64,000 nt of DNA. Source: Odontesthes bonariensis. Taxonomy: Eukaryota; Chordata; Actinopteri; Atheriniformes; Atherinopsidae. Every line of letters starts with the position of its first letter. Positions within the stretch are counted from its first letter, which is position 1. A program made the translations under genes and the position numbers. The notes below the pieces were generated by a model. The model was not told where the DNA came from and did no database searches. It saw nothing but the letters and a program-made list of their open reading frames with translations. Shown here in pieces: positions 48,918 through 53,880 of this stretch. The stretch is taken from the NCBI RefSeq assembly GCF_027942865.1, contig NC_134521.1, positions 24,432,949 to 24,496,948 on the forward strand, given 5' to 3'.

Positions 48918-50760
48918 AGGTGTGAGCAGAGAAGGTCTACTCAGAGGAGTTGAGTCTTCATGAGATGCTTGAAGATACAGAGAGATCTGACAGGATTTTC
49001 TGGCTCGTTTCCCCATCATGCAACCACAAATGACAACAGCTTTTTACTGAGACGCCTCGGGATTGCAGTACCAGACGATGTTAATTAGATGAAAGCAGAA
49101 AGCCAAAGAGGATATCTTTATGTTGTTATTGGTGTGTGATGGATTGATTGGCTGTGGTGACTTGTAGGTCAGTGTTACAGAGGTTTAGTTAAAGGTGGCA
49201 CTCCTTCATCCATGTGGACATGCCAGAGAGATAAGCTGAGTTTGCATGCTGAAACCACATGGTCATCAAGCAAGAATAATAGGGCCAGTCGAGAATCACC
49301 TGCATAACAGTGGCATAAAAGGCAAGCACGGGACTGAGTCTAAGGAGGTGGTGTATATTGCAAAGAGAAGGGGTCCCTAAGAAGTAAATAACTCAATAAT
49401 TTCAAATATTGAGACTCGAAAGTAGCTTGATTTCGTTGAAATCTGCCGCCTGGTCATTTTGACATTAAAAGCACTAATTTGATGGAAAATGGATCATGAG
49501 GGAGTATTCAGTTTAGATTTCATCCCGTGCTATAGGAAGACTGCAGACATGAAAGGAGGATGGCACTCTGTCTTTCAGAGCTGCCCTGGTTTCTCATTGG
49601 CTAAGCAATGTTTAGCATCAAAGCCTTTTGTTGCCTGATGTCTGCTGTATGTTTCTGCGTGCCCTGCTCCAACGGCAACAGAAAAAAAAACATATTCAAA
49701 ACTACAGCAAAGACCCACTGAAGCAAACAGTCAGATGAAGATGTTATGTCTTTGGAAGGAATGGCAGATAAGTTAATGCACTAAAAAAACAGAAATACCT
49801 GTCACCAATTTCTTGAATCAGCCCACATAATTTAAAGTTGTTTATCACAGCAATAAAGATAAAACACTCCACGAAAAGCATATTACTTCACCTGGTGACC
49901 CTCTCTCAGAGGACAAACATTTTTACTGTCCCTTTAATCATTTACCAGATTTTTTTTATTAGAGTGCCAACTTAGAGAGCAAACAGAAGTCTAACTCAAA
50001 CGCCCAAATGTGATGCTTTCACAGAATCTAATCAGATTCTAAACTAGTGAATGATGCATCCATTCAGTGCGAAATATATGATAACAGCTTTTCAAATTGA
50101 AAAGCCTATGAGTCAGCATCCTTGAGTGCAATCTGTATTTTGTTGTGGTGTAGGTCGAGAGAGCAACTCAGTGAGGTTAGGTGACAGGTGAAAGAAGATA
50201 TCGATTGCAAATCATGAAAGCGGGTAAATAAAAACTCATGAGACATATTTACATATCAGTAAATATTAATCACAGGTTACTTAACTTGTCACAGTATATT
50301 TGAAGCACTATGTACCCCCCCCCCCCCACCTCTCCTTGCCTCCCTTCTCCCTCCTCTGTAACTGAACACACAAAGCAACAGTAATGCGGATTAAATAAAA
50401 CCCAAATCTTTCTCTTGATGTAACAGAACTTTATTAATCGAGAAAAGCAAAAGAATCACCTGAGGCAATAGTGCGTGGCTTTGACTCATCATTAACTATG
50501 TATCAATGGATTTATCAGGCAAATTTCAAAGCAAGGTACGTGTCAAAATGAGATTGATAATTTGACATGGCAGACTATTCCAACTAAGAGACAAACAGAA
50601 ACAATGACAAAACATGCACATCTATCACCTTGAATTGAAAAAAAAAACAGTCTCAAGAGGTGTTTGGTAACCCATGGACCAGAAATTGGAAATTTTACTG
50701 GAACCACTGAACCGCAAACACAGTGATAAAAATAACACAATTATGCTCAAATTCAACAAC
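48918..50760. other. Intergenic spacer
   Basis: No gene, RNA or recognisable transposon was seen. A poly(C) run is present near 50316. Confidence 0.5.
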
Positions 50761-52601
50761 ATAAAATCTCTGCTTGCCTTGTGAGGTTGCACTGTAACTG
50801 CTTAACTGACTTATGAAGGCTTTGACTTGATCTGGTGTCAGTGAGCTATAAAAGCAGAAGGTCCAGGGGGAGACTGGATGCTCAAGCTGCTTGTCAGATG
50901 CCTAAGATGACTGTTTTATCCTTCAGGTTGCTCAGATTCATCGCCACTGCATGCACTGCGTGCAATTAACTTTACAGGGCAACACGTAGTCCATAAACTA
51001 TGTTACATTTTAAATACATGAATAAGAGTAACACGATTCACATGAATTATGAACTATCACTGTGTAATGAAATACTCCCTGACCGTTTGGGCTCATTTTC
51101 CTCTAATGCAGTAATGTCAATGTTAGTTGTGTTGTTTAAAAGACTGTTTTGAGTCACTTGTTAGGGGCTGTAACCACTTTTATAGCAAATATCATGACCC
51201 ATTTAGATGGCTCTTATGTTAGTAGCTCTAATTCTGTAATAAAGCTGATCTTGATAAGATAAATAATTAGGCCCAAACCAAGAGCCAAAAAGCTATGCGC
51301 ACTTTAGTGTATTCCAATAATTCACGTGGTTTTCTCTTCTCCCAACAGCTTTTAAACATAGGTGAATTAAAAAGGAAGGTGACTACAGACTCCGGGTCTC
51401 TGTGCAGGAAGCTAAACACTCACTGATGCTTTTCTGTTTTTCACTTCCCTGGAAACATGCAGCCACAGGTTGGTTGGGAGGTGGTTAAAGAGGCATGAAT
51501 AGGCCCTGTAGTTTCACTTTACTCTCAGTAAAGTCAGTTTGTTCTATAGTCACACTGCAAGAAGTCCCACGTGAAAAGTGTTTGGGATTATTTTTCTCTT
51601 GCTTTTTTACTGAAAAAGGAAGCAAAGCGAGGCAACACAGCAAAGGAAGAAGGTGAATACTCTAGATGCTGCAGCTACACAGTGAGAGACATTTATTTCC
51701 GTGTAAACAGAGGCCTATTCAAATAATGTCGCTCACACACTAACCTAGATAATCTTATGTAAATGGCATCCATACAGGAAACACGAGTGACATTCAACTG
51801 GTGTTTTTTCTGATTGGTTGTTTTCCAAATCTCATTGAATGTGGCTTAGTGCCGAAAACAATATATCGATTGTTACAAATTATTTGGGGAAAAACTCCCC
51901 TTGGGCCAAATATAGCCAGACTCAGTCTGGTGTTGCTCTTACAGAATTCCCAACAGCTGGAGAAAGCACACAGTGAATGTACAAGCAAGGGATCGCTAAG
52001 CAAAAAAGTATGGATCAGTCCAGGGAACCAGAGGACTGACTCTCCCTCAGGTAAATATTGCCTCGTCTGATAAGAGTTTAGTGAACCTCACAACTATGTG
52101 CTTCTGACTGGTTTTGAAGTACACCCACATTCTAACGCACATTCCCAGGCCTGAAACATCCCTGGACCGCCCGGGGTCTGATATACTACAGTCCAGAACT
52201 TTGTTTTCCTGCCCGGCACAACACCGCTTCGCTTTATGGTACTGTGTCATGCACCAGCGACTAGATGAAAACACTTGCCAAGGTAAATTAAGAAAAAAAA
52301 AAAATATTTTTTTTTTAAAAGACACTGTTGCCATTACAAATAATGTTGAAGGGAAAATAAATACTGTTTTCATTACAAATAAAGTGCAAGAAAAAAAAGT
52401 GAGTGGCAGATGCAGCTAGTAGACTCAAGACAAGACTATGGGAGGAAGTGAGGAAAAAGAGATGACGGGACGATAAGAAACACTGCACACGTCACAATCG
52501 TAACCCTCAAAAACCCAAATCAGAATAAGAAAACTATTACAAATTAACTATAAAAGTTCATGCTATCTATCACATGTATAGAAAGATGCAGCCTTCTTCT
52601 T

Positions 52602-52714
52602 GATAGATAGATAGATAGATAGATAGATAGATAGATAGATAGATAGATAGATAGATAGATAGATAGATAGATAGATAGATAGATAGATAGATAGATAGAT
52701 AGATAGATAGATAG
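52602..52714. repeat. (GATA)n microsatellite, about 28 units
   Basis: A perfect tetranucleotide array inserted in the space between the exon 9 and exon 10 copies of the irf1 pseudogene. The YLSI repeat peptides translated from it are artefacts. Confidence 0.97.
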
Positions 52715-53019
52715 CACTGTTATATACATACATGTACAGAAGAGACAAAAGTGGAAAACACCAGCACCCGTATAAAGATAATAATAATGATAATAATAAC
52801 ATAATAGTAGTGTACTAGTAATAGTAATGAAAATATTATTAATAATAATAATGATGCTAATAAATTATAATACCTATATAAATGTAAGATTAAAATGATT
52901 AAAGTACACCACAGAGATTATTGCACGTTTTTGCACTGTTGGTTAGACAGACTGACTGACTGCCATCCGTCCTACAGTCCCTCTGTCCTTCTGTTACCCC
53001 TCCTCACCCCCAGTGAGGA

Positions 53020-53340
53020 GTTAAACAGTTTGATGGCACAATAGTTGTAGCGGTGTAGTCTGCGGTGTACAGAGTGAAAAGGATGGGGGACAGTACAGTC
53101 CCCTGTGGAGCTCCAGTGCTGCTGACCACAGTCTCGGCAGGATTTCCATCATCCTGACGTACTGTGGTCTGTTGGTGAGCAGGCAGGGGTCCACTTGCAT
53201 TCTGGTCAGTTTTTCCTGGAGTACAGGGGGCTGGATTGTGTTGAAGGCACTCGAAAAGTTCAGGAAGAGAATCCTGACAGTGCCGCTCCCCTGGTACAGA
53301 TGCGAGTGGGCTCGGTGCAGGAGGTCTTGTAACATAACTC
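53020..53340 (-). mobile_element. Non-LTR retrotransposon reverse-transcriptase fragment
   Basis: The minus strand encodes RILFLNFSSAFNTIQPPVLQ, then KLTRMQVDP and NRPQYVRM. This is the fish LINE version of the reverse-transcriptase block that includes the FxDFSSAFNT motif, here with Asn in place of Asp. About 100 codons remain, with frame damage. It lies within the irf1 pseudogene. Confidence 0.88.
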
Positions 53341-53880
53341 TTCCATGTCTCTTGACATTTCTTTGGAGGTTTTTTTTTTCTTTGTCACCCTCTTAAGTAT
53401 GACAACAAAACCAGGTGTATGGACAAGTATGTGCAGGCCTCACATGTGGGTTTGTTGGAACCACAGTTACATCCCTTTACTGTAGGGGGAGACAAAGAGA
53501 TAAAAACTGACAGATTATTGTGATGCTTTAAATGTGTTTTTGTCGAGTTTATTCACACAAAGCACACATCAGAGTCACTTAGCCTGTGAAATTAAGAACA
53601 TATGGTCACATTTTGCATGTGACTGTGGATGAAATGATCAAACAACCCAGTGTTAATCAGTGGTTGGCCACATTTCCTAATACATGCCTTGCCTCATGCA
53701 GATTCACGGTTGATTTCTCTGTTTTGCAGTCAGTGAACTGACAATAAGCCTCAGTACCCTGGGCTCAGACTTCACAAAATTCCACAGATCACCAGCAAAG
53801 GCTATTATCAACAGTTCCCCTCACGTGTTCTGAGGTTTCCACATCTGGACAGGACTGAACAGTGCTTTGACAATGACTAC

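Follow-up and report, generated by a model that had tools for sequence, protein, structure and literature searches.

A decayed tandem copy of irf1 upstream of the working gene in Odontesthes bonariensis

Introduction

Upstream of the working irf1 gene of Odontesthes bonariensis lies a second, incomplete irf1-like sequence, and the question is whether it is a dead paralogue or the source of a transcript without the DNA-binding domain. Both options had been raised in an earlier note on the window, i.e., the whole stretch of 64,000 nucleotides that was analyzed. Here, the copy was compared with the working gene and with the genome (945,434,557 bases in 187 contigs; the match counts of the genome-wide sequence searches are lower bounds).

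Results

The working gene and its surroundings

Coding exons 2–10 of the working irf1 extend from 58064 to 60731 on the plus strand, and the joined coding sequence is open (903 bases, 300 aa). Exons 2–5 were located at 58064–58150, 58652–58751, 58857–59024, and 59140–59180, and exons 6–10 at 59392–59524, 59689–59808, 59949–59977, 60154–60268, and 60622–60731. The exon numbering is that of the earlier note, and a putative non-coding exon 1 was placed by eye near 57200–57418. The Pfam IRF domain covers residues 7–111 of the product (3.3e-38), and the best PDB match by sequence, with the first 132 residues as query, was 1if1, IRF-1 (7.3e-54). With regard to the teleost genes irf1 (irf1b) and irf11 (irf1a), the DNA-binding domain of the parent gene marks it as IRF1-like. 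The genome contained 23 Pfam IRF-domain matches, and on the window's contig there was just one, in the working gene; the copy had none. By inspection, the 23 matches group into 12 loci on contigs C1 (two), C3, C12, C13, C15, C18, C19, C20, C21, C25, and C28, which is near the teleost IRF complement.

Several other features were observed in the window. A repeated element at 6793–7497 and 31657–32540 has direct and inverted copies that are 84–93% identical and is probably a transposable element, and an inverted repeat of about 200 bases (37192–37382 and 37594–37797) is 86% identical. A minus-strand open frame of 209 aa (34005–34634) has a zf-RVT match below the Pfam cut-off (E 0.00014) and looks like the C-terminal end of a LINE. 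Two minus-strand regions are possible long-chain acyl-CoA synthetase exons, one with an AMP-binding match below the cut-off (13665–14036, E 8.1e-5) and one without a Pfam match (28308–28664). They may belong to acsl, which sits near irf1 in other vertebrates.

The copy is collinear with the irf1 locus

A blastn comparison of 50001–54500 with 54501–64000 yielded five matches, all five of which agree in strand and order. The copy at 50824–53874 is a same-strand, collinear, partial duplicate of the irf1 locus at 55063–60768 and consists of five blocks, all on the plus strand. Block A (50824–51349) pairs with the upstream flank of irf1 at 55063–55484 and is 74.1% identical over 382 aligned columns (gapped alignment, 50820–51345); it is solid at 50824–50942 and 51246–51349 and weak in the middle. 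Duplication of the upstream flank had been claimed from the likeness of 50831 to 55070, and the match of 50828–50906 to 55067–55139 confirmed it. Block B (51410–51497, paired with 58624–58722) is a fragment of exon 3, a DNA-binding domain exon, the acceptor and 3′ part of which are deleted in the alignment. Block C (51512–51840, paired with 59045–59368) comprises the end of intron 4, exon 5, and intron 5, and is 78.2% identical in the alignment to the working irf1. Block D (51875–52074, paired with 60084–60290) comprises the end of intron 8, an open exon 9 (51945–52050), and the start of intron 9. Block E (53549–53874, paired with 60455–60768) contains the end of intron 9, exon 10 (53730–53833), which is open and has several indels, and the start of the 3′-UTR. 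Over all aligned columns, 76.8% of 1270 were identical; the gapped alignments behind these identities favour matches, for exons and introns alike.

Ten stretches, seven of them belonging to the copy, were tested against 100 first-order shuffles each. For six of the seven, no shuffle reached the observed score, namely A1 (254, shuffle maximum 128), A3 (180, 134), B (178, 123), C (803, 200), D (449, 162), and E (607, 232). A2, the middle upstream stretch (50946–51230), scored 203 with a shuffle maximum of 232, and its score was reached by one of 100 shuffles; A2 does not fall cleanly on the diagonal, because its local match shares sequence with the partners of A1 and A3. The stretches 52080–52560, 52760–53540, and 53890–54490, the last of which follows the copy, had no match to irf1, as 36, 16, and 71 of 100 shuffles reached their scores. 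The collinear blastn matches and the six stretches that beat every shuffle bear out the description of the copy as a same-strand, partial irf1 duplicate.

The edges of the duplicated unit were not detected. Scores were reached by 35 of 40 shuffles when the two 5′ flanks were compared and by 26 of 40 for the two 3′ flanks. Likewise, no duplication junction was found, and 53880–55058 showed no match to the sequence 5′ of the copy or to that 3′ of irf1.

Missing and inserted sequences

The block edges of the shuffle-tested alignment define three stretches of the irf1 locus that have no counterpart in the copy. These are about 3.1 kb at 55485–58623 (the region upstream of the start codon, putative exon 1, and exon 2), about 0.3 kb at 58723–59044 (the rest of exon 3 and exon 4), and about 0.7 kb at 59369–60083 (exons 6–8). 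Direct comparison with 50400–55000 did not detect the promoter region with exons 1–2 (57150–58600; 29 of 40 shuffles reached the score), exon 4 (29 of 40), or exons 6–8 (59392–59980; 35 of 40). In exon 5, the acceptor AG has become TG and the alignment contains internal indels. The coding sequence of the copy is therefore disabled, with exons 2, 4, and 6–8 undetectable, exon 3 partial, and the acceptor of exon 5 gone. Of the IRF DNA-binding domain that characterizes the functional IRF-1 group, the exon 3 fragment alone remains.

Where intron 9 of the working gene holds 164 bases between blocks, the copy has an unstranded stretch at 52076–53548 without a detected irf1 counterpart, as judged from the parts compared with irf1 (52080–52560 and 52760–53540). 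Between them, the GATA part (52561–52759) includes a perfect GATA run at 52602–52714. A piece of a LINE reverse transcriptase lies on the minus strand within 53004–53384 and gave a weak Pfam match (E 0.0018; 18.4 bits, below the cut-off of 29.6). This piece is repetitive (query 52940–53400; 845 first-look candidates, 40 of which were scored and yielded 45 matches, including itself).

The gene-derived blocks have two places in the genome. For 51400–52050, these were the region itself and the working irf1 (query 118–441), and the same two places were found for 53549–53880. The query 50820–51350 had no match other than itself at an E of up to 0.001, although the local comparison finds its partner beside irf1. 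Despite the lower-bound counts, a large repeat family would have been noticed, as the LINE piece was. A high-copy repeat, which had been named beforehand as the result that would speak against a duplicate, was rejected on the basis that 51400–52050 matches just itself and irf1 across the whole genome.

Exons 9 and 10 are open and as diverged as the introns

The positions of exons 9 and 10, their correct phases, and their AG/GT flanks are as the earlier note had given them, and the joined frame stops at the homologous place. The two exons had also been called intact, a term that is too strong. Although their frames are open, they differ from irf1 by several indels: in the alignment to the copy, 42 of the 74 codons of the working exons contain gaps or lose the frame. 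The 32 in-frame codons comprise 31 sense codons and the stop. The Ka/Ks comparison gave no sign of constraint, with a dN/dS of 1.02 (dN 0.270, dS 0.264; 31 sense codons, pairwise, no third species), an estimate that is weak because it derives from 4 synonymous and 17 non-synonymous changes.

Exon 9 was 76.0% identical (104 columns), exon 10 was 72.6% identical (95 columns), and the introns were 77.9% identical (556 columns). Pooled, exons 9 and 10 had 148 of 199 identical columns, which fits the intron rate (P = 0.13) and does not fit the rate expected under full constraint in one lineage, set at one half of the divergence of the introns (2.7e-8). Exon 3 (82.5% of 57 columns) and exon 5 (94.6% of 37) were closer to irf1 than exons 9 and 10, and higher identity is expected under constraint on the working gene alone (P = 0.19 for exon 5). 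Constrained C-terminal exons were rejected, as the exons are as diverged as the introns and dN/dS is 1.02. The comparison, which is pairwise and of small sample size, points to an absence of purifying selection on the surviving exons 9 and 10.

How often such frames stay open by chance was quantified in two ways. In first-order random sequence, exon 9 was open in 27% and the body of exon 10 in 32% of the trials. After neutral mutation of the working exons, the joined frame was open in 4.4–6.8% of trials with indels allowed (six settings) and in 13.1% and 31.2% without indels (two settings), and exon 9 alone was open in 18–48%. The lower values are probably nearer the truth, since indels did occur in the copy and a final stop was not required in the simulation. 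The openness of both exons is mildly unusual and still within reach of neutral decay; it is the strongest argument against the pseudogene reading. The joined-exon peptide is identical to irf1 at 25 of 67 positions and beats 500 of 500 shuffles; this likeness is due to common descent and is no sign of constraint.

Discussion

Origin and age of the copy

Taken together, the copy is very probably a tandem duplicated pseudogene of irf1 that decayed neutrally. In agreement with the earlier note, the collinearity, the retained introns and flank, the lost exons, and the two-copy status indicate a dead tandem paralogue from a genomic, not a retro, duplication. The parental intron and upstream sequences retained in the copy (556 and 382 aligned columns) are those expected of a duplicated pseudogene and show that it is a genomic copy. 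A retrocopy was rejected, since processed pseudogenes have no introns and intron sequence is present here.

In the proposed course of events, a head-to-tail duplication would have placed a second irf1, including about 3 kb of sequence 5′ of the start codon (working locus 55063–60768), on the same strand. This upstream duplicate, which was presumably once complete, would then have lost its function and decayed neutrally. Large deletions would have taken the promoter region with exons 1–2, exon 4 along with what is missing of exon 3, and exons 6–8. A retrotransposon piece and a GATA microsatellite now lie in the former intron 9. The intron K80 is 0.265 (standard error about 0.025). On the assumption that the rate lies between 2.5e-9 and 1e-8 per site per year, this would perhaps place the copy at 13–53 million years. 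It would then be far more recent than the genome duplication of teleosts, dated to about 300 million years ago (PMC7915476).

Irf11 (irf1a), the second member of this group in fish, is described as an old subfamily of its own that occupies other gene neighbourhoods (PMC7915476). The introns of the copy, by contrast, still align to this irf1, so that the copy is not irf11. An origin as a copy of irf11 or of a whole-genome duplicate was rejected because the introns are too similar.

Alternative explanations

The copy could be transcribed and yield a short RNA or a C-terminal-only irf1 protein that acts as a decoy for the partners of irf1. Such a product would be in keeping with the open frames, phases, and splice signals that exons 9 and 10 retain, an outcome seen in 4–7% of the neutral runs with indels, and with an ATTAAA at 53907, 74 bases after the stop. 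However, this hexamer is at chance level, since 38% of shuffled 301-base stretches carry one. An ATG is absent from the joined exons and from the stop-free frame of 105 codons that surrounds exon 9, the promoter and exons 1–2 region is undetectable, and the open exons show no constraint and an openness compatible with neutrality. The decoy is thus very unlikely, and a decoy that this fish lineage retains through selection so recent or so weak that a pairwise comparison misses it is exceedingly so. On the sequence features, a transcript without the DNA-binding domain, which the earlier note had considered, finds little support, and the copy is probably not transcribed.

It is also highly improbable that non-coding parts were retained as an enhancer of the working irf1. 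Blocks A and C (intron 4–5) are indeed retained, but they are about as similar to irf1 as the aligned columns in total. No GAS or ISRE-core consensus strings were present in 50700–53900, and no Rfam match was found in 48000–64000 at gathering scores. An assembly artefact, i.e., an uncollapsed allele or a misplaced copy, has next to no likelihood: the adjacency of copy and gene is all that speaks for it, and the divergence of about 23% over 1270 columns, the large deletions, and the LINE insert are far beyond allelic differences. An uncollapsed allele was rejected on this divergence.

Relation to known pseudogenes and meaning

The tandem irf1 pseudogene resembles duplicated (unprocessed) vertebrate pseudogenes in that introns and flank are kept, exons are lost or shifted, divergence is unconstrained, and the parent gene adjoins. 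There is no notable difference from this class; two short 3′ exons happen to stay open. A decayed tandem irf1 of fish was not found among the matches listed in the open-licence literature (titles and starts of abstracts), which is a narrow sample of print, and the salmonid irf paralogues are reported to have shown no pseudogenes (PMC7915476).

The relevance beyond annotation is small. A two-exon irf1-like gene could be miscalled at this locus by gene predictors. For the gene family, the copy would mean that this fish lineage once gained a tandem duplicate of irf1 and did not retain it.
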